Shown here: positions 33,601 through 62,446 of the stretch, piece by piece
Position numbering within the stretch: the stretch's first letter is position 1
How the letters are laid out: the number at the start of each line of letters is the position of its first letter
Assembly (NCBI GenBank): GCA_921293015.1
Contig: OV121086.1
Span: 43,851,402 to 43,915,401 of the forward strand
Direction: 5' to 3'
Length of the DNA stretch: 64,000 nucleotides
Origin: Phorcus lineatus
Lineage: Eukaryota; Mollusca; Gastropoda; Trochida; Trochidae
Position numbers and translations under genes: made by a program
The notes under the pieces: model-generated
Database searches by the model: none
Seen by the model: the letters and a program-made list of their open reading frames with translations, nothing else
What the model was told of the DNA's origin: nothing

Positions 33601-34260
33601 CCTTAGATATGACCTTTGGTTGACCGCAGTAGTCAAAAGAGCATATACATAGGTCTCACGCCCAATTTTGACGCCTTTGATTTTCAAGCGTCGAGGGTTA
33701 TGCCCCTTTGAAAATGGCGATTACGTCAAAATAAAGCAATTTCGACGAAATCTTTTTCCTTAGATATGACATTTGGTTGACCGCAGTAGTCAAAAGAGCA
33801 TATACATAGGTCTCGCGCCCAATTTTGACGCCTTTGATTTTCAAGCGTCGAGGGTTGTGCCCCTTTGAAAATGGTGATTACGTCAAAATAAAGCAATTTC
33901 GACGAAATCTTTTTCCTTAGATATGACCTTTGGTTGACCGCAGTAGTCAAAAGAGCATATACATAGGTCTCGCGCCCAATTTTGACGCCTTTGATTTTCA
34001 AGCGTCGAGGGTTATGCCCCTTTGAAAATGGCGATTACGTCAAAATAAAGCAATTTCGACGAAATCTTTTTCCTTAGATATGACCTTTGGTTGACCGCAG
34101 TAGTCAAAAGAGCATATACATAGGTCTCGCGCCCAATTTTGACGCCTTTGATTTTCAAGCGTCGAGGGTCATGCCCCTTTGAAAATGGCGATTACGTCAA
34201 AATAAAGCAATTTCGACGAACTCTTTTTCCTTAGATATGACCTTTGGTTGACCGCAGTAG
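30600..34260. repeat. Array zone E: 8-monomer module, three copies
   Basis: Marker order TATGTCC, CGGAATC, CTCACG, GTTGTG with GGTGATT, GGTCATG, GAACTC, ATAAATAGG. TATGTCC lies at 30,625, 31,881 and 33,451. The first interval is 8 monomers. The second is 10, because one extra CGGAATC monomer and one extra GTTGTG monomer were inserted. The GTTGTG to GAACTC distance is about 364 bp in all three copies, and GAACTC to the next TATGTCC is 489 bp in both cases. The third copy lacks ATAAATAGG. Confidence 0.85.
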
Positions 34261-34996
34261 TCAAAAGAGCATATACATAGGTCTCGCGCCCAATTTTGAC
34301 GCCTTTGATTTTCAAGCGTCGAGGGTTATGCCCTTTTGAAAATGGCGATTACGTCAAAATAAAGCAATTTCGACGAAATCTTTTTCCTTAGATATGACCT
34401 TTGGTTGACCGCAGTAGTCAAAAGAGCATATACATAGGTCTCGCGCCCAATTTTGACGCCTTTGATTTTCAAGCGTCGAGGGTTATGCCCCTTTGAAAAT
34501 GGCGATTAGGTCAAAATGAAGTAATTTCGACGAAATCTTTTTCCTTAGATATGACCTTTGGTTGACCGCAGTAGTCAAAAGAGCATATACATAGGTCTCG
34601 CGCCCAATTTTGACGCCTTTGATTTTCAAGCGTCGAGGGTTATGCCCCTTTGAAATTGGCGATTACGTCAAAATAAAGCAATTTCGACGAAATCTTTTTC
34701 CTTAGATATGACCTTTGGTTGACCGCAGTAGTCAAAAGAGCATATACATAGGTCTCGCGCCCAATTTTGACGCCTTTGATTTTCAAGCGTCGAGGGTTAT
34801 GCCCCTTTGAAAATGGCGATTACGTCAAAATAAAGCAATTTCGACGAAATCTTTTTCCTTAGATATGACCTTTGGTTGACCGCAGTAGTCAAAAGAGCAT
34901 ATACATAGGTCTCGCGCCCAATTTTGACGCCTTTGATTTTCAAGCGTCGAGGGTTATGCCCCTTTGAAAATGGCGATTACGTCAAAATAAAGCAAT

Positions 34997-34999
34997 TTC
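34997..34999. other. Left target-site duplication, TTC
   Basis: The satellite reads AAAGCAATTTC up to the transposon, and TTC is repeated at 41,633-41,635 on the other side before the satellite resumes as GACGAAATC. The uninterrupted copy at 50,736-50,738 has a single TTC, which confirms the 3-bp length. Confidence 0.92.
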
Positions 35000-35025
35000 C
35001 ACTGGAGTAACGAGCGTTCATTCCA
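35000..35025 (+). repeat. Left terminal inverted repeat, 26 bp
   Basis: Reads CACTGGAGTAACG, then A, then GCGTTCATTCCA. It matches the reverse complement of 41,607-41,632 at 25 of 26 positions, the only difference being A here against C there at position 14. Identity stops abruptly after the final A. Confidence 0.95.
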
Positions 35026-35195
35026 AAAGCTTAAAGGCGTCCTTTCCAAGAGGAAAGAGGCACCCTTCCACACCTTTCCATAAAGGAAAGAGGCACCCTT
35101 CCACACCTTTCCATAGGCTTAAAGAACGCCCTTTCCAAAGCCTCTTTGGAAAGAACGCACGGCAAGGTGACCTTTCCACAGCCTTTAAAACTAAT
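35026..35195. repeat. Left subterminal repeat region
   Basis: CTTTCC or its complement GGAAAG occurs about eight to ten times in 170 bp, in both orientations. One 16-bp stretch, AAAGGCGTCCTTTCCA at 35,033-35,048, also occurs inverted at 41,551-41,566 near the other end. In plant CACTA elements such short subterminal motifs are binding sites for element-encoded proteins. That role here is inference. Confidence 0.8.
35051..35115. repeat. Tandem duplication of a 32-bp subterminal unit
   Basis: The unit beginning AGGAAAGAGGCACCC and ending CACCTTTCCATA is present twice (35,051-35,082 and 35,084-35,115) with a 33-bp period and no difference that I can see. Each copy carries one GGAAAG and one CTTTCC, so the duplication raises the number of putative binding motifs at the left end only. 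Confidence 0.92.
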
Positions 35196-35660
35196 TAGCA
35201 CCTTACCTGTCTGACCAAGAGTTATGTCCCTTTATTCTGTAGTCAAATTCGTCATGTTATTGAATACCTTTAGAAGTTTTTGATTAAGTTAACCTATAGT
35301 TATTTTTACATTTTGAAAATCTTTATTTTGTTTGAAAGATTGATTCTTAAAAGACATGAAATTTAATTTACCTTTGAAAAAAATTTTAAATGTTTTTCAT
35401 CGTAATTTTTTAACAAAAGAAGACTTTGTTTTTAAATGATGAATCAAATCCTTCAAATTAGTTTATTGCAGAAATTAAATAAATCATTTTACTATTTAAG
35501 GAGTGACTTAAACACATGAAATGAATAAGAGATATAGAGTTTGAAAATTGCATCATTTAAAATTAAAAGATATTTAGAAAATTGTATGAATTTAATCATG
35601 GAAAATGTTAATAAACAATTTTTGGCAATGATTATCATTTGTTCGCAATAATTTTTTGAT
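35196..35660. other. AT-rich interior, nothing recognised
   Basis: No open frame or structured element seen. At 35,217 it contains AAGAGTTATGTCCCTTT, close to the satellite word GGGTTATGCCCCTTT. A shorter version (AAGAGTTATGTC) recurs near 35,959. Confidence 0.5.
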
Positions 35661-35661
35661 T

Positions 35662-35868
35662 TCAAAGGTAAATGGTGACCTTTTTGAAAGTGAAGTTTGA
35701 AATATTATCAATGACAAAGTACATACCCGTTTCAATCGTCAGAAAAAGTAATCCGTGAATTGTTTGCAACTTGATCGACTTCCTGAATAATCCTATTAAA
35801 TTTGGGTACCTTTCCAAATGATCTACTTTTTTCAAGTGACTGTAAGCATCGATAGCATTGCCGAACAT
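35662..35868 (-). other. Exon-like open frame of 68 codons, unrecognised
   Basis: The longest ATG-initiated frame in the transposon. It begins MFGNAIDAYSHLKKV and has mixed composition unlike the AT-driven frames around it. A GTATGT at 35,721-35,726 (complement ACATAC) could be a splice donor ending a coding exon of 142 nt (35,727-35,868). The start context is AGAAAATG, preceded by a CCAAT sequence. I recognise no domain. A frame of this length is not rare by chance in 6.6 kb of AT-rich DNA. It could be an exon of a captured gene or of a decayed transposase, but neither is shown. Confidence 0.15.
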
Positions 35869-35869
35869 T

Positions 35870-36946
35870 TTCTTCTCATTGGTTGAACGTATATTCTACA
35901 AGTTCATTGGTTTATAACGTTTGTCGTTGTTAAGATGTACTAATTAGCTGTGTAATGCCAAGAGTTATGTCAGTATGAACGGATGTTGACATAAGCCGCC
36001 ATTTACCAAAGGGTCCAAAGCACATGTGTGGGCCTGCTATTTGAGACAAATAATCTGACAATGAAATTTGACAGGAAATAGATTACATAATAGGCACCTG
36101 TTAATTATGACAACATTAGGACCCAACTATGGACAGTATGCATTGAATCTGAGCAGTGTCTTGTGATGTGCAATTGCGTCGCCACATTCTAAACTCAGCA
36201 TGAAGTACATAATTCACAAAACCAGTTTCATAAATAAATATCAAAACTAAAAAAGTGTTTTATTTTTTTTTTAAATTCCAAGCTTCATAGGTTCAAAATT
36301 TAATTGGATCAGGTAAAAACTATTATTCATACAAGAATTTATGAATGAGTTTTTAAAAAGAATATAGAATGTTGATGTAATAAGAGCATTGTGAAGATGA
36401 CAATATCCCTTGTCAATCGTTAAATTTTATATAAAACAACTAAATACAGGATCATATAACGAATATTTGTACTTAAATGTATGACTACATTGATCATGCA
36501 TGTTTATGATTGTTCGATATGTATTTCGAAAAGATATATATGTCTCATAAATTATCATTACAGGAAAGTAAATTCTAAGGCAACAGCTAGTTCGCCGATC
36601 CGTTCGTTGTCCAAATTAAGGAAACATTTAGATATGTGTATGTAAATTGCAACTTACAATGTCATGTATAATTATGGTAAAACTTATGATATCAACAACA
36701 AAGCGTTGATCTAATATTAATTCATTGTTCATGAGCTTAACATAATAAAGAACATCTTAGAAATAGAATTTAGAAACATACAATCTAATGCTATTGTTTG
36801 ATAATAACAAGCAAAACAGAAAAATCTTATAAAACAGATCCACAAAAATATTTTATTGAATCTTACATATCCCCTATTTCAAATAATGCACCTTAGGCTT
36901 TCTGTGAGAAGAATCGCTCATTATAAACAATATACATCTTGTTAAT
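35870..36946. other. AT-rich interior, nothing recognised
   Basis: No frame above about 50 codons and no hairpin or repeat that I could support. It includes a run of nine or more T near 36,260. The segment around 36,000-36,190 is somewhat richer in G+C but has no recognisable content. Confidence 0.4.
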
Positions 36947-37060
36947 TTGTCTAGCCGACAATCAAGAGTGCCTCTTTGATCTCATAGTGGTAATTAACTG
37001 GATGCGTTTAGTGTAGAGGCTGGACCAGAAAGGGGGAGGGGGCGTGAGGGGTGGGGCGTC
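36947..37060. repeat. Diverged direct repeat 1, copy a
   Basis: Begins with TTGTCTAGCCGACAATCAAG, identical over 20 bp to 38,655-38,674. Similarity then decays but continues through a shared TCTTTGA/TCTGTGA region into a purine-rich stretch. It may be a fragment of an older dispersed repeat present twice in the element. Confidence 0.65.
37032..37056 (+). other. G-quadruplex motif
   Basis: Four G-runs of 5, 5, 4 and 4 at 37,032-37,036, 37,038-37,042, 37,048-37,051 and 37,053-37,056, with loops of 1, 5 and 1 bases. This fits the canonical G3+N1-7 pattern well and stands out in an otherwise AT-rich interior. The diverged copy near 38,720 has lost most of the G-runs. Confidence 0.8.
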
Positions 37061-37796
37061 TGGAAGTGACACTCGCTTGGAAAGAGCGTCTGACAGGATT
37101 GCTTTCATTGCTATTTGGCGGTCTATGGTATAGTATTCCCGCTATGCCATTGCCGAGACCTGGACTAACGGATTATGAATTGAGTTTCACTTGAATGTCA
37201 TATATAAAATATAGATTTAGCCAATGATCGAGTTTACAATTTATGATGAAAATATTAGGCTTTTCATTATTACATTAACAGGGCTTATTTCGGAGGTCAC
37301 GTTTTAATATATCAAACCCAGTAACCACATACTTGAACCAAACCTCTATTGTCCACAAAAGATTTTATAGAAAGCTCAATCGGCTCATACATAGCTTAAA
37401 ATATAGTTTTATGAACAATTCATTTCTGTTGATAGGTTTGCTCATTCATGAAACGGTATAAGATTGTTTTCTGACAATTCCTATGTTGTATCAATTCTTT
37501 TGAAATTAAGGAAATAATTTAAATTTCTGTATCAAGGTTAGAAACGCGGTGTAAAGTAAAATTATCAATAATATCAAGTCACAGAAACGGATGTATGAAA
37601 ACATATTAATGGATATTTATAATCAACTGACGATACTTTATACATACTGATACTACAATATGTGCACATATCCATTAAAAGTGGTAAATATTGTAAATAA
37701 AAACTTCACCTTGTGTATTAACCTCTGTCTAATAAGTAAAATTTGGACTTGCTTCCATGGTGTGCTAACAGTGAAATAAATGGATGGTTAAGACAA
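37061..37796. other. Unassigned interior
   Basis: The first 120 bp are near 50% G+C; the rest is strongly AT-rich. No coding frame, RNA gene or transposon terminus is recognisable. Confidence 0.4.
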
Positions 37797-37852
37797 TCAA
37801 CAACGGGTTTCATATCATGTTATAAGATGTCTTACATTTCTTTTATCAACTC
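37797..37852. repeat. Diverged direct repeat 2, copy a
   Basis: The segment starting TCAACAACGGGTTTCATA is repeated 100 bp downstream at 37,897 as TCAACAAACGGTTTCATA, at roughly 80% identity over about 55 bp. Both contain CATG followed by a TTACATTTC/ATACATTTC tail. Confidence 0.7.
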
Positions 37853-37896
37853 TCCATGCTCCAGATCTTGCTTTCTGTGAATGTTCTCTTTGCCGT

Positions 37897-37952
37897 TCAA
37901 CAAACGGTTTCATACCATGTGATAATGTCGCATACATTTCACATTCAAGCTC
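37897..37952. repeat. Diverged direct repeat 2, copy b
   Basis: Partner of 37,797-37,852. The unique spacer between the copies is about 44 bp. The divergence indicates an old local duplication. Confidence 0.7.
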
Positions 37953-38367
37953 TTGATTTTGTCAAATACTCGAGTGCGCCTCAAGCTCGATTGTAGTGAA
38001 TGCAAAAAATAAATAGACAAATATCGGACACGTCCAGATGTTTTTGGGGAAATTGACAAAGTATGTTACATTTTCTCTTAATTTGTCTAAAATTTTAAGA
38101 GCAAATATATTTCTATATACATGGATATGAGTTCTATACGGTAGTGACATTTTGAGCTACTTAACGAATAGAAACATCCTTAATTCAACACGTTTTATAC
38201 AAATAAGTAAACGATTTTCGTGATTTCTTCAATTACTAAGATTATTTTGAATTTAATTCACGTTTATAATCACGTGCATCAGTTGAGCAACAATTTTGAA
38301 AATTTTCGCTATGCTTTGTTATTTATAGCACAAGTTCTCACAGGTTTTTTACTTCTCTAATTCGTTG
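37953..38367. other. AT-rich interior with a chance open frame
   Basis: A 62-codon minus-strand ATG frame (37,962-38,150) lies here. Its composition follows the local base bias, it has no recognisable domain, and I treat it as chance. Confidence 0.4.
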
Positions 38368-38455
38368 TTATGTTCTGTATCCATGTATTGTTTAATTTTG
38401 TTATGTTCTGTATCCATGTATTGTTATGTTCTGTATCCATGTATTGTTTAATTTT
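38368..38455. repeat. Short tandem repeat, three 23-bp cores
   Basis: The core beginning TTATGTTCTGTATCCATG and ending TATTG occurs at 38,368, 38,401 and 38,424. The first and third copies are followed by TTTAATTTT, giving units of 33, 23 and 32 bp. Copies are identical, so this is recent replication slippage. A 63-codon minus-strand frame that reads through it simply mirrors the repeat. Confidence 0.92.
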
Positions 38456-38587
38456 GTATTGGTACGGCGTTGAAATTGGCCAAATGACTTGTTCGCCAGT
38501 CCAAATTTTGTACGAAATAAAAATATGGTTATAAACAATCTCATACAAATTGATAATACGGCTTACCTTGCTAAGTAACTACACAGG

Positions 38588-38609
38588 TCTCTCTGTCAAC
38601 TCAGAGAGA
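38588..38609. other. Perfect hairpin
   Basis: TCTCTCTG and CAGAGAGA form an 8-bp stem around a TCAACT loop. No T-run follows and no adjacent gene is seen, so no terminator or regulatory role is claimed. Confidence 0.7.
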
Positions 38610-38654
38610 GGATGTTGCACAATTTTATTACATGGTAATTAACCGTTCGTTACC

Positions 38655-38760
38655 TTGTCTAGCCGACAATCAAGGATGTCTCTGTGACCGTAACATGACA
38701 ATACACTTGATGGGCGTGTGTAAGGGGCAGGGAGAGAGTCAGCAAAAGAAGTGACGTTGT
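38655..38760. repeat. Diverged direct repeat 1, copy b
   Basis: Shares TTGTCTAGCCGACAATCAAG with 36,947-36,966, 1,708 bp away in the same orientation. The following sequence is similar but degraded, with AGGGGCAGGGAGAG where copy a has longer G-runs. Confidence 0.65.
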
Positions 38761-39678
38761 TTGACAACAAAGATTAACGAGATCAAAATAAGAAGTGAAT
38801 TAATTAATAGGGCATATCCTCCCCCAAAGTATAAAGTATACCAATGGTTTCATAAAAATATAATGATATATATACTGTTGTTAGAATTAAAAAAATATGA
38901 AATCATAAAATTACACTGTATTCTCGAATGTTGAAAAGGTTGGTTGTTTCAATGAATGTCTTTATTCAACTAGAAAAATTCATGCTTTCGGGCATCCACA
39001 TGACTACATGTATGTCATGTGAACATTATGTTGGAAAATATCTGCCTGTTAAATTTAAAAGCATGTGGACTGAATTTAGCAATTAACTTTTTTCAACTGA
39101 AAACAAGGTTTGATTACCAATAATATTGCTTTAAATCAAATCCTTTAGTATAGAAAAACATGTCTTGGCGAAAATCACAAAATAATATGAAATAATGAAG
39201 AGAGGCTTCATAATTAACGCCACAAGAACAGACTGATGTTGGATATATAAAACGTTCATTTTATATTCATTTAGGTCGCTGCATTCAAGTCGAAGAGAGC
39301 AATATATTATTTGACAAATTCTGATTCATTTGCAAGTCAAGGTGGCTGTAGATATATGTCTCGTTATTCATAATCTATGTTAGAATATCAGTGATCTATA
39401 TTTGGTAGGCATTGATCTAACGAAGAGATGTACTTTATACAACAAAATAACCTTGATTTAGACATTATTTATGTCAATCACTTACCTCAGAATGAAGATG
39501 GTCTGGCTCATTCGGGTTAGTTCCCTTCAAACTTTCTATCCAACAAATTCATAAACACATTACACTCTTGCTTCTGGAGCGTCAAAATGTACACGCCCCA
39601 TTTAAGAATACATAGTGTAATACTGATGTAGACATCCCCTACTCTTTTCTGGATTGTTCTTCTGTAAATTATTGACAA
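38761..39678. other. AT-rich interior, nothing recognised
   Basis: About 900 bp without a supportable gene, repeat or structure. Stops are frequent in all frames. Confidence 0.4.
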
Positions 39679-39780
39679 AGGGTCGTTCACAAGCATTTAG
39701 TTAACAGTAATCCTATTTAAAACAACATCAAAATTGACTTATTTATCTAGACCCAAGCTCAGTGCTACTCCGGGATTCTT
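39679..39780. repeat. Diverged direct repeat 3, copy a
   Basis: Starts GGGTCGTTCACAAGCATTTA and contains TTAACAGTAATCCTAT, AAAACAACATCAA and ATCTAGACCCAAGCTC. All have close counterparts 170 bp downstream. Confidence 0.8.
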
Positions 39781-39848
39781 CTAAAAGCTTTATTATCAAA
39801 ACAGAAATAACAGATTACACTGCATACCCACTTTACATTAAATAAAGA

Positions 39849-39943
39849 AGGGTCCTTAACAAGCATTTAGTTAACAATAATCCTATCTAAAACAACATCA
39901 AGATCCATCTAGATCCAAGCTCCCTGCTTCTGCAGGGTTCTTA
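39849..39943. repeat. Diverged direct repeat 3, copy b
   Basis: Counterpart of 39,679-39,780 with GGGTCCTTAACAAGCATTTA, TTAACAATAATCCTAT, AAAACAACATCAA and ATCTAGATCCAAGCTC. It is about 80-85% alike with a short internal deletion. The 68-bp spacer is not repeated. Confidence 0.8.
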
Positions 39944-40541
39944 ATTTCAAACTTGTTTTCTTATATTAATGGCTATATAGAGCATATGACAAAAGTTTAT
40001 CATATCAACTGTTTATATATGAAAATAACTTTATGCCTTTTACTTAAAGTGGCTTTATTCTAAGTTAAATTGTTTATTTTATGAAAAGTGGTACCTCATC
40101 CAAATTCCTCTACCTTAAAACATAGGTTTCTATGTTCATTAATATGTTTTGACTTGATGCCTCAAGCAAAATATAGAAAAAACAGCATGTTGTGATAAAC
40201 TCATGGTAAAATTCCGAATATCACTAAATATTTTAGTATCAGAGGAAATCATATGAGATGTGTGTGCTGGTCTTTTTGTTATTATTATTTATTTATTAAG
40301 ATGTATGTTCATCCTTTTTCGTGCCTCTATGCAAAATGATTTTGTGTGGTCATTCTCTTTCATCTATGTCATCCAGCATTCAATATTATTTTTTACAGTA
40401 AGTGACTTATTTTCTGAGATCCGCATGGGCAAATTTAGATTTTATTATTGTTATGTTGTTCTGATTTAAGAAAAATTAACAAATGTTACTAAAACAACGA
40501 GTTAGCGTCAGATAATACCATTTAGCTTCTCAGACCAATAA
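39944..40541. other. AT-rich interior with a chance open frame
   Basis: A 69-codon plus-strand ATG frame (40,260-40,469) is made mostly of I, F, Y, L and V codons. This is what T-rich DNA gives by chance, and it has no recognisable motif. Confidence 0.4.
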
Positions 40542-40724
40542 AACCTATCAGACTATGACCAGTTGTCAGCTTCAGGTATTGAGCAGGTGTCAAACGTGCT
40601 GTACAAACACATGCAGGTGGCTTGTAGACAAGTGACCATGTATCAGTCTGTTTTGTCAGGACGGTGTCTCTCGTGTCTTGAACCAACAGGATACACTGCT
40701 TTACCGCATCCTGTTATCCAATGA
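40542..40724 (+). other. G+C-richer open segment, possible exon remnant
   Basis: One frame stays open for 60 codons between a TAA at 40,539-40,541 and a TGA at 40,722-40,724, across DNA clearly richer in G+C than its surroundings. The translation has a balanced composition (it includes SASGIEQVSNVLYKHM and ends LEPTGYTALPHPVIQ). A pyrimidine-containing TTAGCTTCTCAG just upstream could be a splice acceptor. I recognise no protein family, and an opening of this length can arise by chance. If it is coding, it would be a terminal exon of a captured or decayed gene. Confidence 0.15.
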
Positions 40725-40856
40725 AATCTGAGAGGTTAGATAAGAAATTAAGAAAATCAAACTAATTTTGCATCGGCTTTCTTTTTCTCATCTGGTCGCC
40801 ATTATTGTTTGAATGTGATAGCTGGATGTAGAGATTGTGTCGTTTATCTTTTTAGC

Positions 40857-40868
40857 CACTGATCAGTG
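40857..40868. other. 12-bp perfect palindrome
   Basis: CACTGATCAGTG is fully self-complementary and shares the CACTG word with the element termini. No function can be assigned, and it may be coincidence. Confidence 0.5.
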
Positions 40869-41509
40869 ATGGGTTTTTGTTCTGTTCTTAAGCTAAAAAG
40901 GACTTGGATATTTATGTTATTGTGGATACATTCACTGAAAAGGTACGTTCCACATGTTTAACTGATCAACTAACACATGCTTTATTGATTTATGAAAGAA
41001 GTATATGCGGCAGCTTTTCATTTTTACCTAACTTAATTTAGCGCTTTGCAAATTCGTTACCTTCAGAGTAATGCACTTTAAGCATGTATTAGTGCGTGGA
41101 AAAGTGCCATATAACTATCCATAAAATTATTATAACAATCACGTTATACGTTAAATAACTATAAAGTAAATCCCTTTGATGACCTTTATAGATATGTGAA
41201 CTATGTTATCCAATTAAATATGATACTGTTTCCTTATATATGCCACTCAACCACTCGATTTAATACATGTTGAACTACTAACTTAATTCAAAATGACTTC
41301 TTAACAGCTTTTCATTTCACTTTTCTCCTAGTTAATAATTTTAAAATAATCGTTCCACGTCCATGATTAACACAGTTTCATGATCTCGTAATTTCATGAA
41401 ATCAAATGCATGTTTCAAATAAGAAATAAAAAACCCTTTTCAACCATACTGCTTAGAATTGAGAAAAACATATAGTGCGATTTTATGCGCGCTTCATTGA
41501 CTTAATCGA
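40869..41509. other. AT-rich interior, nothing recognised
   Basis: No frame, repeat or structure supportable. Sequence is 30-35% G+C by eye, as in most of the element. Confidence 0.4.
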
Positions 41510-41606
41510 TTTGGAAAGATAGGCAACGGAAAGGCGACCTTTCCTTAGTGTGGAAAGGACGCCTTTCAGTTTTTGGCAAGACCGCCCTGCCAAATTTGGA
41601 AAGTTA
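41510..41606. repeat. Right subterminal repeat region
   Basis: Five or six GGAAAG/CTTTCC motifs in both orientations within 100 bp, including TGGAAAGGACGCCTTT (41,551-41,566), the inverse of the 16-bp block at 35,033-35,048. The block lies 41 bp further from its own end than its left counterpart does, so the two ends are not simple mirror images beyond the 26-bp termini. Confidence 0.8.
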
Positions 41607-41632
41607 TGGAATGAACGCGCGTTACTCCAGTG
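41607..41632 (-). repeat. Right terminal inverted repeat, 26 bp
   Basis: Reverse complement reads CACTGGAGTAACG, then C, then GCGTTCATTCCA. It ends in CCAGTG, immediately followed by the TTC target duplication and resumed satellite. Confidence 0.95.
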
Positions 41633-41635
41633 TTC
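41633..41635. other. Right target-site duplication, TTC
   Basis: Second copy of the TTC found at 34,997-34,999. The satellite resumes in exact phase (GACGAAATC), so no satellite bases were lost on insertion. Confidence 0.92.
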
Positions 41636-42318
41636 GACGAAATCTTTTTCCTTAGATATGACCTTTGGTTGACCGCAGTAGTCAAAAGAGCATATACATA
41701 GGTCTCGCGCCCAATTTTGACGCCTTTGATTTTCAAGCGTCGAGGGTTATGCCCCTTTGAAAATGGCGATTACGTCAAAATAAAGCAATTTCGACGAAAT
41801 CTTTTTCCTTAGATATGACCTTTGGTTGACCGCAGTAGTCAAAAGAGCATATACATAGGTCTCGCGCCCAATTTTGACGCCTTTGATTTTCAAGCGTCGA
41901 GGGTTATGCCTCTTTGAAAATGGCGATTACGTCAAAATAAAGCAATTTCGACGAAATCTTTTTCCTTAGATATGACCTTTGGTTGACCGCAGTAGTCAAA
42001 AGAGCATATACATAGGTCTCGCGCCCAATTTTGACGCCTTTGATTTTCAAGCGTCGAGGGTTATGCCCCTTTGAAAATGGCGATTACGTCAAAATTAAGC
42101 AATTTCGACGAAATCTTTTTCCTTAGATATGACCTTTGGTTGACCGCAGTAGTCTAAAGAGCATATACATAGGTCTCGCGCCCAATTTTGACGCCTTTGA
42201 TTTTCAAGCGTCGAGGGTCATGCCCCTTTGAAAATGGCGATTACGTCAAAATAAAGCAATTTCGACGAAATCTTTTTCCTTAGATATGACCTTTGGTTGA
42301 CCGCAGTAGTCAAAAGAG

Positions 42319-42433
42319 CATGTACATAGGTCTCGCGCCCAAATTTGACGCCTTTGGTTTTCAAGCGTCGAGGGTTATGCCCCTTTGAAAATGGTTATTA
42401 CGTCAAAATAAAGCAATTTTAAAGAAATATTTT
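42319..42433. repeat. Divergent satellite subtype, first copy
   Basis: Monomer with CATGTACAT, TTTGGTTTTC, GGTTATTACG and AATTTTAAAGAAATATTTT, at least six linked changes from consensus. It is the most diverged monomer type in the window and is absent from the left array. Confidence 0.9.
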
Positions 42434-42759
42434 TCCTTAGATATGACCTTTGGTTGACCGCAGTAGTCAAAAGAGCATATACATAGGTCTCGCGCCCAAT
42501 TTTGACGCCTTTGATTTTCAAGCGTCGAGGGTTATGCCCCTTTGAAAATGGCGATTACGTCAAAATAAAGCAATTTCGACGAAATCTTTTTCCTTAGATA
42601 TGACCTTTGGTTGACCGCAGTAGTCAAAAGAGCATATACATAGGTCTCGCGCCCAATTTTGACGCCTTTGATTTTCAAGCGTCGAGGGTTATGCCCCTTT
42701 GAAAATGGCGATTACGTCAAAATAAAGCAATTTCGACGAAATCTTTTTCCTTAGATATG

Positions 42760-45700
42760 ACATTTGGTTGACCGCAGTAGTCTAAAGAGCATATACATAG
42801 GTCTCGCGCCCAATTTTGACGCCTTTGATTTTCAAGCGTCGAGGGTTATGCCCCTTTGAAAATGGCGATTACGTCAAAATAAAGCAATTTCGACGAAATC
42901 TTTTTCCTTAGATATGACATTTGGTTGACCGCAGTAGTCAAAAGAGCATATACATAGGTATCGCGCCCAATTTTGACGCCTTTGATTTTCAAGCGTCGAG
43001 GGTTATGCCCCTTTGAAAATGGCGATTACGTCAAAATAAAGCAATTTCGACGAAATCTTTTTCCTTAGATATGACCTTTGGTTGACCGCAGTAGTCAAAA
43101 GAGCATATACATAGGTCTCGCGCCCAATTTTGACGCCTTTGATTTTCAAGCGTCGAGGGTTATGCCCCTTTGAAAATGGCGATTACGTCAAAATAAAGCA
43201 ATTTCGACGAAATCTTTTTCCTTAGCTTTGACCTTTGGTTGACCGCAGTAGTCAAAAGAGCATATACATAGGTCTCGCGCCCAATTTTGACGCCTTTGAT
43301 TTTCAAGCGTCGAGGGTTATGCCCCTTTGAAAATGGCGATTACGTCAAAATAAAGCAATTTCGACGAAATCTTTTTCCTTAGATATGACCTTTGGTTGAC
43401 CGCAGTAGTCAAAAGAGCATATACATAGGTCTCGCGCCCAATTTTGACGCCTTTGATTTTCAAGCGTCGAGGGTTATGCCCCTTTGAAAATGGCGATTAC
43501 GTCAAAATAAAGCAATTTCGACGAAATCATTTTCCTTAGATATGACCTTTGGTTGACCGCAGTAGTCAAAAGAGCATATACATAGGTCTCGCGCCCAATT
43601 TTGACGCCTTTGATTTTCAAGCGTCGAGGGTTATGCCCCTTTGAAAATGGCGATTACGTCAAAATAAAGCAATTTCGACGAATTCATTTTCCTTAGATAT
43701 GACCTTTGGTTGACCGCAGTAGTCAAAAGAGCATATACATAGGTCTCGCGCCCAATTTTGACGCCTTTGATTTTCAAGCGTCGAGGGTTATGCCCCTTTG
43801 AAAATGGCGATTACGTCAAAATAAAGCAATTTCGACGAAATCTTTTTCCTTAGATATGACCTTTGGTTGACCGCAGTAGTCAAAAGAGCATATACATAGG
43901 TCTCGCGCCCAATTTTGACGCCTTTGATTTTCAAGCGTCGAGGGTCATGCCCCTTTGAAAATGGCGATTACGTCAAAATTAAGCAATTTCGACGAAATCT
44001 TTTTCCTTAGATATGACCTTTGGTTGACCGCAGTAGTCAAAAGAGCATATACATAGGTCTCGCGCCCAATTTTGACGCCTTTGATTTTCAAGCGTCGAGG
44101 GTTATGCCCCTTTGAAAATGGCGATTACGTCAAAATAAAGCAATTTCGACGAAATCTTTTTCCTTAGATATGACCTTTGGTTGACCGCAGTAGTCAAAAG
44201 AGCATGTACATAGGTCTCGCGCCCAATTTTGACGCCTTTGATTTTCAAGCGTCGAGGGTTATGCCCCTTTGAAAATGGCGATTACGTCAAAATAAAGCAA
44301 TTTCGACGAAATCTTTTTCCTTAGATATGACCTTTGGTTGACCGCAGTAGTCAAAAGAGCATATACATAGGTCTCGCGCCCAATTTTGACGCCTTTGATT
44401 TTCAAACGTCGAGGGTTATGCCCCTTTGAAAATGGCGATTACGTCAAAATAAAGCAATTTCGACGAAATCTTTTTCCTTAGATATGACCTTTGGTTGACC
44501 GCAGTAGTCTAAAGAGCATATACATAGGTCTCGCGCCCAATTTTGACGCCTTTGATTTTCAAGCGTCGAGGGTCATGCCCCTTTGAAAATGGCGATTACG
44601 TCAAAATAAAGCAATTTCGACGAAATCTTTTTCCTTAGATATGACCTTTGGTTGACCGCAGTAGTCTAAAGAGCATATACATAGGTATCGCGCCCAATTT
44701 TGACGCCTTTGATTTTCAAGCGTCGAGGGTTATGCCCCTTTGAAAATGGCGATTACGTCAAAATAAAGCAATTTCGACGAAATCTTTTTCCTTAGATATG
44801 ACCTTTGGTTGACCGCAGTAGTCAAAAGAGCATATACATAGGTCTCGCGCCCAATTTTGACGCCTTTGATTTTCAAGCGTCGAGGGTTATGCCCCTTTGA
44901 AAATGGCGATTACGTCAAAATAAAGCAATTTCGACGAAATCTTTTTCCTTAGCTTTGACCTTTGGTTGACCGCAGTAGTCAAAAGAGCATATACATAGGT
45001 CTCGCGCCCAATTTTGACGCCTTTGATTTTCAAGCGTCGAGGGTTATGCCCCTTTGAAAATGGCGATTACGTCAAAATAAAGCAATTTTGACGAAATCTT
45101 TTTCCTTAGATATGACCTTTGGTTGACCGCAGTAGTCAAAAGAGCATATACATAGGTCTCGCGCCCAATTTTGACGCCTTTGATTTTCAAGCGTCGAGGG
45201 TTATGCCCCTTTGAAAATGGCGATTACGTCAAAATAAAGCAATTTCGACGAAATCATTTTCCTTAGATATGACCTTTGGTTGACCGCAGTAGTCAAAAGA
45301 GCATATACATAGGTCTCGCGCCCAATTTTGACGCCTTTGATTTTCAAGCGTCGAGGGTTATGCCCCTTTGAAAATGGCGATTACGTCAAAATAAAGCAAT
45401 TTCGACGAAATCATTTTCCTTAGATATGACCTTTGGTTGACCGCAGTAGTCAAAAGAGCATATACATAGGTCTCGCGCCCAATTTTGACGCCTTTGATTT
45501 TCAAGCGTCGAGGGTTATGCCCCTTTGAAAATGGCGATTACGTCAAAATAAAGCAATTTCGACGAAATCTTTTTCCTTAGATATGACCTTTGGTTGACCG
45601 CAGTAGTCAAAAGAGCATATACATAGGTCTCGCGCCCAATTTTGACGCCTTTGATTTTCAAGCGTCGAGGGTCATGCCCCTTTGAAAATGGCGATTACGT
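42760..45700. repeat. Direct duplication of an 11-monomer block
   Basis: Markers GGTATCG (42,958/44,685), TTAGCTTTG (43,224/44,951), CATTTT (43,528/45,255 and 43,685/45,412) and GGTCATG with AATTAAGC (43,942/45,669) all repeat at 1,727 bp, which is 11 monomers. A further copy of the two CATTTT markers follows 2,669 bp (17 monomers) later at 47,924. Confidence 0.85.
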
Positions 45701-49300: not shown

Positions 49301-49900
49301 GATTACGTCAAAATAAAGCAATTTCGACGAAATCTTTTTCCTTAGATATGTCCTTTGGTTGACCGCAGTAGTCAAAAGAGCATATACATAGGTCTCGCGC
49401 CCAATTTTGACGCCTTTGATTTTCAAGCGTCGAGGGTTATGCCCCTTTGAAAATGGCGATTACGTCAAAATAAAGCAATTTCGACGGAATCTTTTTCCTT
49501 AGATATGACATTTGGTTGACCGCAGTAGTCAAAAGAGCATATACATAGGTCTCACGCCCAATTTTGACGCCTTTGATTTTCAAGCGTCGAGGGTTATGCC
49601 CCTTTGAAAATGGCGATTACGTCAAAATAAAGCAATTTCGACGAAATCTTTTTCCTTAGATATGACCTTTGGTTGACCGCAGTAGTCAAAAGAGCATATA
49701 CATAGGTCTCGCGCCCAATTTTGACGCCTTTGATTTTCAAGCGTCGAGGGTTGTGCCCCTTTGAAAATGGTGATTACGTCAAAATAAAGCAATTTCGACG
49801 AAATCTTTTTCCTTAGATATGACCTTTGGTTGACCGCAGTAGTCAAAAGAGCATATACATAGGTCTCGCGCCCAATTTTGACGCCTTTGATTTTCAAGCG
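46367..49900. repeat. Array zone G: copies of the zone E module
   Basis: TATGTCC, CGGAATC and CTCACG recur with TATGTCC at 46,367, 47,152 and 49,347. The first interval is 5 monomers and the first copy lacks the GTTGTG/GGTGATT member. The second interval is 14 monomers less 3 bp, explained by a 3-bp loss at 49,083. This ties the arrays on the two sides of the transposon together as products of the same amplification. Confidence 0.8.
49083..49085. other. 3-bp deletion in the array
   Basis: GGTCCGCCCAA replaces GGTCTCGCGCCCAA, removing one CpG. It lies between well-homogenised monomers and was not seen elsewhere. Confidence 0.9.
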
Positions 49901-49914
49901 TCGAGGGTTATGCC

Positions 49915-52430
49915 CCTTTGAAAATGGCGATTACGTCAAAATAAAGCAATTTCTACGAACTCTTTTTCCTTAGATATGACCTTTGGTTGACCGCAGTAGT
50001 CAAAAGAGCATATACATAGGTCTCGCGCCCAATTTTGACGCCTTTGATTTTCAAGCGTCGAGGGTTATGCCCCTTTGAAAATGGCGATTACGTCAAAATA
50101 AAGCAATTTCGACGAAATCTTTTTCCTTAGATATGACCTTTGGTTGACCGCAGTAGTCAAAAGAGCATATACATAGGTCTCGCGCCCAATTTTGACGCCT
50201 TTGATTTTCAAGCGTCGAGGGTTATGCCCCTTTGAAAATTGCGATTAGGTCAAAATAAAGTAATTTCGACGAAATCTTTTTCCTTAGATATGACCTTTGG
50301 TTGACCGCAGTAGTCAAAAGAGCATATACATAGGTCTCGCGCCCAATTTTGACGCCTTTGATTTTCAAGCGTCGAGGGTTATGCCCCTTTGAAAATGGCG
50401 ATTACGTCAAAATAAAGCAATTTCGACGAAATCTTTTTCCTTAGATATGACCTTTGGTTGACCGCAGTAGTCAAAAGAGCATATACATAGGTCTCGCGCC
50501 CAATTTTGACGCCTTTGATTTTCAAGCGTCGAGGGTTATGCCCCTTTGAAAATGGCGATTACGTCAAAATAAAGCAATTTCGACGAAATCTTTTTCCTTA
50601 GATATGACCTTTGGTTGACCGCAGTAGTCAAAAGAGCATATACATAGGTCTCGCGCCCATTTTTGACGCCTTTGATTTTCAAGCGTCGAGGGTTATGCCC
50701 CTTTGAAAATGGCGATTACGTCAAAATAAAGCAATTTCGACGAAATCTTTTTCCTTAGATATGACCTTTGGTTGACCGCAGTAGTCAAAAGAGCATATAC
50801 ATAGGTCTCGCGCCCAATTTTGACGCCTTTGATTTTCAAGCGTCGAGGGTTATGCCCCTTTGAAAATGGCGATTACGTCAAAATAAAGCAATTTCGACGA
50901 AATCTTTTTCCTTAGATATGACATTTGGTTGACCGCAGTAGTCAAAAGAGCATATACATAGGTCTCGCGCCCAATTTTGACGCCTTTGATTTTCAAGCGT
51001 CGAGGGTTATGCCTCTTTGAAAATGGCGATTACGTCAAAATAAAGCAATTTCGACGAAATCTTTTTCCTTAGATATGACCTTTGGTTGACCGCAGTAGTC
51101 AAAAGAGCATATACATAGGTCTCGCGCCCAATTTTGACGCCTTTGATTTTCAAGCGTCGAGGGTTATGCCCCTTTGAAAATGGCGATTACGTCAAAATAA
51201 AGCAATTTCGACGAAATCTTTTTCCTTAGATATGACCTTTGGTTGACCGCAGTAGTCTAAAGAGCATATACATAGGTCTCGCGCCCAATTTTGACGCCTT
51301 TGATTTTCAAGCGTCGAGGGTCATGCCCCTTTGAAAATGGCGATTACGTCAAAATAAAGCAATTTCGACGAAATCTTTTTCCTTAGATATGACCTTTGGT
51401 TGACCGCAGTAGTCAAAAGAGCATGTACATAGGTCTCGCGCCCAATTTTGACGCCTTTGGTTTTCAAGCGTCGAGGGTTATGCCCCTTTGAAAATGGTTA
51501 TTACGTCAAAATAAAGCAATTTTAAAGAAATATTTTTCCTTAGATATGACCTTTGGTTGACCGCAGTAGTCAAAAGAGCATATACATAGGTCTCGCGCCC
51601 AATTTTGACGCCTTTGATTTTCAAGCGTCGAGGGTTATGCCCCTTTGAAAATGGCGATTACGTCAAAATAAAGCAATTTCGACGAAATCTTTTTCCTTAG
51701 ATATGACCTTTGGTTGACCGCAGTAGTCAAAAGAGCATATACATAGGTCTCGCGCCCAATTTTGACGCCTTTGATTTTCAAGCGTCGAGGGTTATGCCCC
51801 TTTGAAAATGGCGATTACGTCAAAATAAAGCAATTTCGACGAAATCTTTTTCCTTAGATATGACCTTTGGTTGACCGCAGTAGTCTAAAGAGCATATACA
51901 TAGGTCTCGCGCCCAATTTTGACGCCTTTGATTTTCAAGCGTCGAGGGTCATGCCCCTTTGAAAATGGCGATTACGTCAAAATAAAGCAATTTCGACGAA
52001 ATCTTTTTCCTTAGATATGACCTTTGGTTGACCGCAGTAGTCAAAAGAGCATATACATAGGTATCGCGCCCAATTTTGACGCCTTTGATTTTCAAGCGTC
52101 GAGGGTTATGCCCCTTTGAAAATGGCGATTACGTCAAAATAAAGCAATTTCGACGAAATCTTTTTCCTTAGATATGACCTTTGGTTGACCGCAGTAGTCA
52201 AAAGAGCATATACATAGGTCTCGCGCCCAATTTTGACGCCTTTGATTTTCAAGCGTCGAGGGTTATGCCCCTTTGAAAATGGCGATTACGTCAAAATAAA
52301 GCAATTTCGACGAAATCTTTTTCCTTAGCTTTGACCTTTGGTTGACCGCAGTAGTCAAAAGAGCATATACATAGGTCTCGCGCCCAATTTTGACGCCTTT
52401 GATTTTCAAGCGTCGAGGGTTATGCCCCTT
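49915..52430. repeat. Empty-site paralog of the transposon insertion locus
   Basis: From 49,915 to 50,738 this block aligns without gaps to 34,176-34,999 (offset 15,739; shared GAACTC at 34,218/49,957 and GATTAGG plus AAGTAATTTCG at 34,504/50,243). From 50,736 onward it aligns to 41,633-43,300 (offset 9,103). The two alignments meet exactly at a single TTC at 50,736-50,738. I count about six differences in the 824-bp left part. Further left, the flank continues with a one-monomer difference (TATGTCC 33,451/49,347). Confidence 0.88.
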
Positions 52431-55400
52431 TGAAAATGGCGATTACGTCAAAATAAAGCAATTTCGACGAAATCTTTTTCCTTAGATATGACCTTTGGTT
52501 GACCGCAGTAGTCAAAAGAGCATATACATAGGTCTCGCGCCCAATTTTGACGCCTTTGATTTTCAAGCGTCGAGGGTTATGCCCCTTTGAAAATGGCGAT
52601 TACGTCAAAATAAAGCAATTTCGACGAAATCTTTTTCCTTAGATATGACCTTTGGTTGACCGCAGTAGTCAAAAGAGCATATACATAGGTCTCGCGCCCA
52701 ATTTTGACGCCTTTGATTTTCAAGCGTCGAGGGTCATGCCCCTTTGAAAATCGCGATTACGTCAAAATAAAGCAATTTCGACGAAATCTTTTTCCTTAGA
52801 TATGACCTTTGGTTGACCGCAGTAGTCAAAAGAGCATGTACATAGGTCTCGCGCCCAATTTTGACGCCTTTGGTTTTCAAGCGTCGAGGGTTATGCCCCT
52901 TTGAAAATGGTGATTACGTCAAAATAAAGCAATTTTAAAGAAATATTTTTCCTTAGATATGACCTTTGGTTGACCGCAGTAGTCAAAAGAGCATATACAT
53001 AGGTCTCGCGCCCAATTTTGACGCCTTTGATTTTCAAGCGTCGAGGGTTATGCCCCTTTGAAAATGGCGATTACGTCAAAATAAAGCAATTTCGACGAAA
53101 TCTTTTTCCTTAGATATGACAGTTGGTTGACCGCAGTAGTCAAAAGAGCATATACATAGGTCTCGCGCCCAATTTTGACGCCTTTGATTTTCAAGCGTCG
53201 AGGGTCATGCCCCTTTGAAAATGGCGATTACGTCAAAATAAAGCAATTTCGACGAAATCTTTTTCCTTAGATATGACCTTTGGTTGACCGCAGTAGTCAA
53301 AAGAGCATATACATAGGTATCGCGCCCAATTTTGACGCCTTTGATTTTCAAGCGTCGAGGGTTATGCCCCTTTGAAAATGGCGATTACGTCAAAATAAAG
53401 CAATTTCGACGAAATCTTTTTCCTTAGATATGACATTTGGTTGACCGCAGTAGTCAAAAGAGCATATACATAGGTCTCGCGCCCAATTTTGACGCCTTTG
53501 ATTTTCAAGCGTCGAGGGTTATGCCCCTTTGAAAATGGCGATTACGTCAAAATAAAGCAATTTCGACTAAATCTTTTTCCTTAGCTTTGACATTTGGTTG
53601 ACCGCAGTAGTCAAAAGAGCATATACATAGGTCTCGCGCCCAATTTTGACGCCTTTGATTTTCAAGCGTCGAGGGTTATGCCCCTTTGAAAATGGCGATT
53701 ACGTCAAAATAAAGCAATTTCGACGAAATCTTTTTCCTTAGATATGACCTTTGGTTGACCGCAGTAGTCAAAAGAGCATGTACATAGGTCTCGCGCCCAA
53801 TTTTGACGCCTTTGGTTTTCAAGCGTCGAGGGTTATGCCCCTTTGAAAATGGTTATTACGTCAAAATAAAGCAATTTTAAAGAAATATTTTTCCTTAGAT
53901 ATGACCTTTGGTTGACCGCAGTAGTCAAAAGAGCATATACATAGGTCTCGCGCCCAATTTTGACGCCTTTGATTTTCAAGCGTCGAGGGTTATGCCCCTT
54001 TGAAAATGGCGATTACGTCAAAATAAAGCAATTTCGACGAAATCTTTTTCCTTAGATATGACCTTTGGTTGACCGCAGTAGTCAAAAGAGCATATACATA
54101 GGTCTCGCGCCCAATTTTGACGCCTTTGATTTTCAAGCGTCGAGGGTTATGCCCCTTTGAAAATGGCGATTACGTCAAAATAAAGCAATTTCGACGAAAT
54201 CTTTTTCCTTAGATATGACCTTTGGTTGACCGCAGTAGTCAAAAGAGCATATACATAGGTCTCGCGCCCAATTTAGACGCCTTTGATTTTCAAGCGTCGA
54301 GGGTTGTGCCCCTTTGAAAATGGCGATTACTTTAAAATAAAGCAATTTCGACGAAATCTTTTTCCTTAGATATGACCTTTGGTTGACCGCAGTAGTCAAA
54401 AGAGCATATACATAGGTCTCGCGCCCAATTTTGACGCCTTTGATTTTCAAGCGTCGAGGGTTATGCCCCTTTGAAAATGGCGATTACGTCAAAATAAAGC
54501 AATTTCGACGAAATCTTTTTCCTTAGATATGACCTTTGGTTGACCGCAGTAGTCAAAAGAGCATATACATAGGTCTCGCGCCCAATTTTGACGCCTTTGA
54601 TTTTCAAGCGTCGAGGGTTATGCCCCTTTGAAAATGGCGATTACGTCAAAATAAAGCAATTTCGACGAAATCTTTTTCCTTAGCTTTGACCTTTGGTTGA
54701 CCGCAGTAGTCTAAAGAGCATATACATAGGTCTCGCGCCCAATTTTGACGCCTTTGATTTTCAAGCGTCGAGGGTTGTGCCCCTTTGAAAATGGCGTTAC
54801 TTAAAAATAAAGAAATTTCGACGAAATCTTTTTCCTTAGATATGACCTTTGGTTGACCGCAGTAGTCAAAAGAGCATATACATAGGTCTCGCGCCCAATT
54901 TTGACGCCTTTGATTTTCAAGCGTCGAGGGTTATGCCCCTTTGAAAATGGCGATTACGTCAAAATAAAGCAATTTCGACGAAATCTTTTTCCTTAGCTAT
55001 GTCCTTTGGTTGACCGCAGTAGTCAAAAAGAGCATATACATAGGTCTCGCGCCCAATTTTGACGCCTTTGATTTTCAAGCGTCGAGGGTTATGCCCCTTT
55101 GAAAATGGCGATTACGTCAAAATAAAGCAATTTCGACGAAATCTTTTTCCTTAGATATGACCTTTGGTTGACCGCAGTAGTCAAAAGAGCATATACATAG
55201 GTCTCGCGCCCAATTTTGACGCCTTTGATTTTCAAGCGTCGAGGGTTATGCCCCTTTGAAAATGGCGATTACGTCAAAATAAAGCAATTTCGACGAAATC
55301 TTTTTCCTTAGCTTTGACCTTTGGTTGACCGCAGTAGTCTAAAGAGCATATACATAGGTCTCGCGCCCAATTTTGACGCCTTTGATTTTCAAGCGTCGAG

Positions 55401-58400: not shown

Positions 58401-60483
58401 ATGGCGATTACGTCAAAATAAAGCAATTTCGACGAAATCTTTTTCCTTAGATATGACCTTTGGTTGACCGCAGTAGTCAAAAGAGCATATACATAGGTCT
58501 CGCGCCCAATTTTGACGCCTTTGATTTTCAAGCGTCGAGGGTTATGCCCCTTTGAAAATGGCGATTACGTCAAAATAAAGCAATTTCGACGAAATCTTTT
58601 TCCTTAGATATGACCTTTGGTTGACCGCAGTAGTCTAAAGAGCATATACATAGGTATCGCGCCCAATTTTGACGCCTTTGATTTTCAAGCGTCGAGGGTT
58701 ATGCCCCTTTGAAAATGGCGATTACGTCAAAATAAAGCAATTTCGACGAAATCTTTTTCCTTAGATATGACCTTTGGTTGACCGCAGTAGTCAAAAGAGC
58801 ATATACATAGGTCTCGCGCCCAATTTTGACGCCTTTGATTTTCAAGCGTCGAGGGTTATGCCCCTTTGAAAATGGCGATTACGTCAAAATAAAGCAATTT
58901 CGACGAAATCTTTTTCCTTAGCTTTGACCTTTGGTTGACCGCAGTAGTCAAAAGAGCATATACATAGGTCTCGCGCCCAATTTTGACGCCTTTGATTTTC
59001 AAGCGTCGAGGGTTATGCCCCTTTGAAAATGGCGATTACGTCAAAATAAAGCAATTTCGTCGAAATCTTTTTCCTTAGATATGACCTTTGGTTGACCGCA
59101 GTAGTCAAAAGAGCATATACATAGGTCTCGCGCCCAATTTTGACGCCTTTGATTTTCAAGCGTCGAGGGTTATGCCCCTTTGAAAATGGCGATTACGTCA
59201 AAATAAAGCAATTTCGACGAAATCTTTTTCCTTAGATATGACCTTTGGTTGACCGCAGTAGTCAAAAGAGCATATACATAGGTCTCGCGCCCAATTTTGA
59301 CGCCTTTGATTTTCAAGCGTCGAGGGTCATGCCCCTTTGAAAATCGCGATTACGTCAAAATAAAGCAATTTCGACGAACTCTTTTTCCTTAGATATGACC
59401 TTTGGTTGACCGCAGTAGTCAAAAGAGCATATACATAGGTCTCGCGCCCAATTTTGACGCCTTTGATTTTCAAGCGTCGAGGGTTATGCCCTTTGAAAAT
59501 GGCGATTACGTCAAAATAAAGCAATTTCGACGAAATCTTTTTCCTTAGATATGACCTTTGGTTGACCGCAGTAGTCAAAAGAGCATATACATAGGTCTCG
59601 CGCCCAATTTTGACGCCTTTGATTTTCAAGTGTCGAGGGTTATGCCCCTTTGAAAATGGCGATTAGGTCAAAATAAAGTAATTTCGACGAAATCTTTTTC
59701 CTTAGATATGACCTTTGGTTGACCGCAGTAGTCAAAAGAGCATATACATAGGTCTCGCGCCCAATTTTGACGCCTTTGATTTTCAAGCGTCGAGGGTTAT
59801 GCCCCTTTGAAAATGGCGATTACGTCAAAATAAAGCAATTTCGACGAAATCTTTTTCCTTAGATATGACATTTGGTTGACCGCAGTAGTCAAAAGAGCAT
59901 ATACATAGGTCTCGCGCCCAATTTTGACGCCTTTGATTTTCAAGCGTCGAGGGTTATGCCCCTTTGAAAATGGCGATTACGTCAAAATAAAGCAATTTCG
60001 ACGAAATCTTTTTCCTTAGATATGACATTTGGTTGACCGCAGTAGTCAAAAGAGCATATACATAGGTCTCGCGCCCAATTTTGACGCCTTTGATTTTCAA
60101 GCGTCGAGGGTTATGCCCCTTTGAAAATGGCGATTACGTCAAAATAAAGCAATTTCGACGAAATCTTTTTCCTTAGATATGACATTTGGTTGACCGCAGT
60201 AGTCAAAAGAGCATATACATAGGTCTCGCGCCCAATTTTGACGCCTTTGATTTTCAAGCGTCGAGGGTTATGCCCCTTTGAAAATGGCGATTACGTCAAA
60301 ATAAAGCAATTTCGACGAAATCTTTTTCCTTAGATATGACCTTTGGTTGACCGCAGTAGTCAAAAGAGCATGTACATAGGTCTCGCGCCCAATTTTGACG
60401 CCTTTGGTTTTCAAGCGTCGAGGGTTATGCCCCTTTGAAAATGGTTATTACGTCAAAATAAAGCAATTTTAAAGAAATATTTT
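51422..60483. repeat. Seven further copies of the divergent subtype
   Basis: The monomer type first seen at 42,319 recurs at 51,422-51,536, 52,835-52,949, 53,777-53,891, 56,289-56,403, 57,388-57,502, 58,015-58,129 and 60,369-60,483. Intervals are 9, 6, 16, 7, 4 and 15 monomers (the last two each short by one deleted base). The copy at 52,835 has GGTGATTACG rather than GGTTATTACG, which is one step from consensus and could be the ancestral form or a partial conversion. The monomer that follows is usually consensus. Confidence 0.9.
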
Positions 60484-61600
60484 TCCTTAGATATGACCTT
60501 TGGTTGACCGCAGTAGTCAAAAGAGCATATACATAGGTCTCGCGCCCAATTTAGACGCCTTTGATTTTCAAGCGTCGAGGGTTATGCCCCTTTGAAAATG
60601 GCGATTACGTCAAAATAAAGCAATTTCGACGAAATCTTTTTCCTTAGATATGACCTTTGGTTGACCGCAGTAGTCAAAAGAGCATGTACATAGGTCTCGC
60701 GCCCAATTTTGACGCCTTTGATTTTCAAGCGTCGAGGGTTATGCCCCTTTGAAAATGGCGATTACGTCAAAATAAAGCAATTTCGACGAAATCTTTTTCC
60801 TTAGATATGACCTTTGGTTGACCGCAGTAGTCTAAAGAGCATATACATAGGTCTCGCGCCCAATTTTGACGCCTTTGATTTTCAAGCGTCGAGGGTCATG
60901 CCCCTTTGAAAATGGCGATTACGTCAAAATAAAGCAATTTCGACGAAATCTTTTTCCTTAGATATGACCTTTGGTTGACCGCAGTAGTCTAAAGAGCATA
61001 TACATAGGTATCGCGCCCAATTTTGACGCCTTTGATTTTCAAGCGTCGAGGGTTATGCCCCTTTGAAAATGGCGATTACGTCAAAATAAAGCAATTTCGA
61101 CGAAATCTTTTTCCTTAGATATGACCTTTGGTTGACCGCAGTAGTCTAAAGAGCATATACATAGGTCTCGCGCCCAATTTTGACGCCTTTGATTTTCAAG
61201 CGTCGAGGGTCATGCCCCTTTGAAAATGGCGATTACGTCAAAATAAAGCAATTTCGACGAAATCTTTTTCCTTAGATATGACCTTTGGTTGACCGCAGTA
61301 GTCTAAAGAGCATATACATAGGTATCGCGCCCAATTTTGACGCCTTTGATTTTCAAGCGTCGAGGGTTATGCCCCTTTGAAAATGACGATTACGTCAAAA
61401 TAAAGCAATTTCGACGAAATCTTTTTCCTTAGATATGACCTTTGGTTGACCGCAGTAGTCAAAAGAGCATATACATAGGTCTCGCGCCCAATTTTGACGC
61501 CTTTGATTTTTCAAGCGTCGAGGGTTATGCCCCTTTGAAAATGGCGATTACGTCAAAATAAAGCAATTTCGACGAAATCTTTTTCCTTAGCTTTGACCTT
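59376..61600. repeat. Third, rearranged copy of the insertion-locus block
   Basis: GAACTC (59,376) to GATTAGG with AAGTAATTTCG (59,661) repeats the 286-bp spacing seen at 34,218 and 49,957, minus a known 1-bp loss. TTTTAAAG (60,465), TCTAAAG and GGTATCG (61,007) follow with the same internal spacing, but about three monomers are missing between the two parts. The exact empty site is therefore not preserved. Confidence 0.7.
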
Positions 61601-62185: not shown

Positions 62186-62446
62186 ATAAAGCAATTTCGA
62201 CGAAATCTTTTTCCTTAGATATGACCTTTGGTTGACCGCAGTAGTCAAAAGAGCATATACATAGGTCTCGCGCACAATTTTGATTCCTTTGATTTTCAAG
62301 CGTCGAGGGTTATGCCCCTTAGATATGACCTTTGGTTGACCGCAGTAGTCAAAAGAGCATATACATAGGTCTCGCTTCCAATTTTGACGCCTTTGATTTT
62401 CAAGCGTCGAGGGTTATGCCCCTTTGAAAATGGCGATTACGTCAAA
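62186..62446. repeat. Fused monomer pair with a 53-bp deletion
   Basis: Two monomers span 261 bp instead of 314. At 62,320/62,321 ATGCCCCTT joins AGATATGACC, removing phase 136 of one monomer through phase 31 of the next, including the dyad. CCTT is shared at both original breakpoints, a 4-bp microhomology. Confidence 0.93.

Follow-up and report, generated by a model that had tools for sequence, protein, structure and literature searches.

How did one block of satellite monomers come to stand twice in the same tandem array, once interrupted by a DNA transposon and once not? The window, meaning the whole 64-kb stretch of DNA analysed (43,851,402-43,915,401 of C11, the 58.7-Mb contig OV121086.1, in a genome of 957.8 Mb and 74 contigs), is outside the transposon a single array of 157-bp monomers in one orientation throughout. 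Positions below are counted from the first base of the window unless they are given on a contig. Parsing the two parts of the array in the window gave 368 pieces, which carry 1.49 variants on average; 76 of the 368 match the consensus exactly (74 of these exceed 20 bases), and the monomers are on average ~99% identical to it. The whole array spans ~43,824,015-44,023,022, with a short detached piece near 43,816,000. Its left half, to ~43.925 Mb (window-based ~73,600), is heterogeneous and mostly carries the variant 27C. The change to the right half is abrupt: there 27A is found in 97-100% of monomers per 5-kb bin up to the right edge of the array, and 84-100% of the monomers in a bin have no other variant (67% in one exceptional nine-monomer bin). 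The array ends on the right with no sign of a heterogeneous layer. The 27C word has 487 exact matches in the genome, all within the stretch of C11 that we retrieved, where 597 of the 775 genome matches of the 27A word were also located.

The insert (35000-41632, 6,633 bp) is a CACTA-like DNA transposon. Its terminal inverted repeats (TIRs), CACTGGAGTAACG at both ends (35000-35028 and 41604-41632), have 29-nt arms that are 93% complementary; the inverted copy terminates at 41632, and TTC stands outside each end. Searching the genome for the terminal 25 bases with up to 2 mismatches gave 227 forward and 241 reverse places, 468 in all (backwards control, 0). Eight other copies of the family, picked among the first 100 of the 468 places listed, were all flanked by a 3-bp target site duplication (TSD): TAC, ATA, AAT, TTG, CAT, AAT, ACG and GTT. 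Transposons of the CACTA/EnSpm (CMC) group have TIRs starting CACTA or CACTG, a 3-bp TSD without fixed sequence and repeated subterminal motifs, and their autonomous copies encode a transposase with a Transposase_21 or related DDE domain. The insert resembles CACTA (En/Spm, CMC) elements in its CACTG termini, its variable 3-bp TSD and its motifs crowded at both ends, with 8 of the 9 occurrences of CCTTTCC or GGAAAGG lying within 200 bp of the start or 150 bp of the end of the 6,633-bp element. PIF/Harbinger elements also make a 3-bp TSD, of the form TWA, and hAT elements one of 8 bp; we rejected the former because the TSDs of the sampled copies are not of TWA form, and the latter because the longest direct repeat at the ends was 3 bp in all eight copies.

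The copy in the array differs from an autonomous CACTA element in that no transposase was recognised in it. Seventeen stop-to-stop frames of at least 60 aa overlap 34900-41700, the longest (87 aa) extending from the transposon into the satellite. A Pfam scan of 10 of these 17 frames gave nothing at the cut-off (7 with no match, 3 with weak sub-threshold matches), and Rfam gave no match to 34900-41700 at the gathering threshold. Transposase_21 has 10 matches genome-wide; the one locus of these ten examined as an autonomous partner was rejected, as the 15.9 kb around it held neither the TIRs of the insert nor any blastn similarity to it. Elsewhere in the genome, at C5:45337389-45356885, three copies of the family stand head to tail with two identical 48-bp spacers between them, which suggests tandem duplication of a unit of transposon plus spacer.

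With the insert left out, its two flanks join into one continuous satellite sequence that is found again, free of the transposon, farther along the array (Table 1). The initial annotation had proposed that the flanks meet there at a single TTC, and this held when 785 bp of left flank and 1,884 bp of right flank were compared with 49954-52622: the alignment is gapless and unshifted, with 12 mismatches, and the next best start has 35 (scan of ~204 kb, 43,811,402-44,015,401; the preceding 60 kb contain no satellite word). Joined flanks of 824 and 1,668 bp likewise gave 12 mismatches against 49915-52406 and 34 in the runner-up register of the window. No other register fits both flanks equally well, and the junction needs no shift. 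Both flanks thus run on into each other at one transposon-free locus that has the TSD sequence once, and the left junction of satellite and transposon is unique in the 958-Mb genome, allowing up to 1 mismatch.

Table 1. Positions in the window of the two block copies, the transposon and its target site, and a partial third paralog.
Feature	Position	Strand	Evidence
Filled block, left half, 10 monomers	33430-34999	+	Monomer alignment to 49326-50738
112C monomer in filled block, unpaired in empty block	34058-34214	+	Gap in monomer alignment
Target site duplication, left TTC	34997-34999	+	Flank comparison
CACTA-like DNA transposon copy, 6,633 bp, without recognisable transposase	35000-41632	+	TIRs and TSD
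Target site duplication, right TTC	41633-41635	+	Flank comparison
Filled block, right half, 12 monomers	41636-43519	+	6 mismatches in 1,884 bp against 50739-52622
Empty block copy, 21 monomers	49326-52622	+	Monomer alignment score 75.4
Intact single TTC target site of empty copy, no footprint	50736-50738	+	Sequence and alignment
Third partial paralog, left marker and right marker module, no transposon	59373-60627	+	Marker search

The two flanks contribute unequally to this result. Unshifted, the right flank had 6 mismatches, and moving it by one to six monomers in either direction (12 shifts) raised this to 35-43; the left flank, treated in the same way, went from 6 to 9-66. Taken alone, 824 bp of left flank fit 2801-3624 as well as the empty copy (6 mismatches each), 1,200 bp fit 30974-32173 with 9 mismatches against 12 in the ungapped register ending at 50738, and over an ungapped 2,000 bp other places fit equally well or better. 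This last ambiguity arises because of a one-monomer gap and of nearby relatives of the upstream monomers. As the left flank alone is ambiguous, the assignment depends on shared rare variants (6C; 137G+150T) together with the right flank.

The extent of the block was taken from a monomer-by-monomer alignment weighted by the rarity of variants. Its left edge had earlier been placed at 34176, but homology resumes past a one-monomer gap and reaches 33430 in the filled copy and 49326 in the empty one, so that 21 monomers are aligned and one, carrying 112C, is unpaired. The variants 25T; 4G+71A; 113G+131T; 6C; and 137G+150T are common to the left half of the filled block and the empty block. The alignment scores 75.4; when the order of the monomers was shuffled 200 times, with gaps allowed only on the side of the real gap, no score exceeded 33.9. 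The neighbouring consensus monomer at 33901-34057 could instead be the extra one. A 112C monomer also stands just before a 6C monomer at 32802-33115 and 59216-59528, and the empty copy has therefore probably lost its own. A multi-monomer block does, as had been claimed, occur twice in the array with the transposon in one copy.

Long satellite arrays are hard to assemble, and the second block might be the other haplotype or a misjoin. The array does hold a gap of 200 N (44,004,156-44,004,355), but that gap is ~100 kb beyond the right side of the empty block, and the window is free of N. The filled and empty blocks also differ in their neighbours on both sides. Moreover, ten other block pairs at various lags exceed the shuffle maximum, as a haplotype duplication would not have them do. 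We regard an assembly artefact as a very improbable source of the second block.

These ten pairs came from an all-against-all comparison of the 605 monomers of the heterogeneous half, which yielded 25 block pairs with a score of at least 22. Shuffling set a ceiling of 33.7 (100 ungapped shuffles; 33.65 in 200 fully gapped ones), which eleven of the pairs, some overlapping each other, surpass; the filled/empty pair ranks second among these, and the remaining fourteen are below the ceiling. That ten pairs besides this one exceed the shuffle maximum argues that copying of transposon-free blocks is routine in this half of the array. In ratios taken from the score table, the eleven pairs differ by 0.38-0.94 per aligned monomer and the filled/empty pair by 0.67, an ordinary divergence among the block pairs of the array. 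The top-scoring pair (61571-72032 and 63402-72659, window-based and overlapping) has 22 gaps, and within 61571-72659 groups of several monomers are repeated locally, with irregular joins between monomers at 62317 and 66149.

The filled and empty blocks differ at 14 sites over 21 monomers (3,297 bp, 0.42%). Seven of these differences involve variants that are frequent in other parts of the array, 27A in five cases, and each of the other seven occurs once among the 368 pieces of the window, as changes private to one copy. The rough relative age first drawn from six differences in 824 bp was too high; it also counts variants that appear repeatedly throughout the array. The recurrent differences would fit short conversion tracts shuttling variants between monomers, with a mutational hotspot as the alternative. 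Monomer position 27 stands out twice, since 27A accounts for 5 of the 14 block differences and is also the signature of the uniform half.

We consider it highly likely that the block was duplicated within the heterogeneous half and that a single insertion into one copy followed. Some 21-22 monomers would have been duplicated by unequal exchange or copying repair; afterwards the CACTA-like transposon, with a transposase presumably supplied from elsewhere, would have entered the TTC of one copy and duplicated it, and the other copy would have retained the uninterrupted site. Private point changes would then have gathered in each copy, 27A would have come and gone between monomers, probably by local conversion, and a monomer has probably dropped out of the empty copy. 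What the sequence itself shows is the existence of two copies, the uninterrupted site, the doubled TTC, how far the block extends and the private changes; in what order things happened and how the block was copied are inferred. The exact 3-bp duplication here and in all eight sampled siblings, together with the lack of a footprint at the empty site, supports duplication followed by insertion. A weakness of this reading is that it draws on a single assembly.

The clean target site also bears on whether both copies were once filled and the second then lost its transposon precisely, through excision repaired via TTC or through conversion from empty monomers. The 3-bp duplication offers microhomology for such a repair, and near-consensus monomers of the array could act as an empty conversion donor. 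For the mPing element, excision is reported to be repaired precisely by way of the microhomology that the target duplication provides (PMC4561436). Against these points, 50736-50738 carries no extra bases, doubled TTC or remnant of the transposon, and a conversion donor among unrelated monomers would be likely to remove the variants specific to the block, which are kept on both sides at exact spacing. We think precise loss hardly probable, and it is less likely than exchange with an empty homolog, the main alternative to duplication followed by insertion.

That alternative has the insertion older than the duplication: the template of the copied block would have been an allele without the transposon, on the homolog or the sister, through unequal exchange of a chromosome that had the insertion with one that lacked it. 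The two copies would then never both have been filled, although the transposon was inserted before they came to lie in cis. Satellite arrays are known to exchange unequally. The flanks alone cannot date the insertion, and attempting to do so through siblings of the transposon was of little help: the one compared in full, the best match by a 1-kb segment among the 40 of 415 candidates scored, differs at 72 of 6,624 sites (1.09%), too distant to order the events. Compared with the 0.42% of the block, this divergence sets no younger upper limit on the insertion and so allows one older than the duplication. An older insertion would have had to be polymorphic when the block was copied, a requirement that nothing in the window imposes, and we judge it unlikely. 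Duplication followed by insertion is thus the most economical of the orders that the annotation had thought could be read from the locus, but it is not the only possible one.

A third paralog bears on the ancestral state. The rare left marker (6C; 137G+150T) occurs three times genome-wide, always within the window, and the third occurrence is followed by the right marker module after 4 monomers, against 7 in the filled and empty blocks. This paralog may have lost the insertion site; being 3 monomers shorter, it does not firmly polarise the empty state as ancestral. Relatives of the left part of the block lie at 31-33 kb and 46-50 kb, the right part has its relatives at 51-61 kb, and within the retrieved array the right-hand module is found outside 51-61 kb only in the filled copy. 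This gives some indication, short of proof, that it was the filled block that was transplanted; we abandoned the assignment of donor and recipient because the relatives of the two parts are in different places.

The homogeneous half of the array has an insert of its own, a 9.5-kb LTR-type element at C11:43945475-43954999 (window-based ~94074-103598). Its LTRs, ~1,452 bp each, are 100% identical, and its apparent TSD is TATA; it is a very recent insertion. One might read the whole array as a two-layer recorder, in which a patchwork half that is still copying blocks adjoins a half that was homogenised recently and has taken over one end. Each layer would be marked by a transposon of its own age, the DNA transposon with its empty twin in the old half and the LTR element in the young half; the spread of 27A would trace conversion between the layers, and the order and relative age of copying, insertion and takeover could be read from one assembly. 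We offer this reading tentatively and consider it more doubtful than not.

Related satellites, 72-82% identical, were found on C13, C19, C38, C15, C25, C29, C32 and C37, with 78 of the 78 listed matches on the minus strand; because the search skips very common words, and did not list even the C11 array, these matches cannot be taken as a census. Those on C13 and C19 lie within ~12 and 29-42 kb of the right ends of their contigs, and the C11 array is interstitial. From these positions, these could possibly be chromosome-end satellites, or a fused chromosome could be involved. BIV160-type bivalve satellites come to mind by monomer length only.

The empty copy shows clearly what the site looked like before the transposon entered it, and establishes the TSD of the element. 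It also shows that rare monomer variants suffice to trace paralogous blocks in a satellite of ~99% identity, and together with the much more uniform right half it makes the locus a small test case for the turnover of satellite arrays. To our knowledge none of the separate processes is new; the case is clean and its processes ordinary, and it is instructive rather than surprising. Related-to-empty-site (RESite) evidence is an established support for transposon insertions, and the locus resembles it in that a paralogous transposon-free sequence reveals the state before insertion and confirms the TSD. It differs in that the paralog is a block of the same tandem array, recognisable only by rare monomer variants. 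The array itself is comparable to centromeric satellites evolving higher-order repeats, in which adjacent monomers are also copied as runs that later drift and gain or lose monomers, but in place of one dominant higher-order period its heterogeneous half is a patchwork of blocks at many lags.
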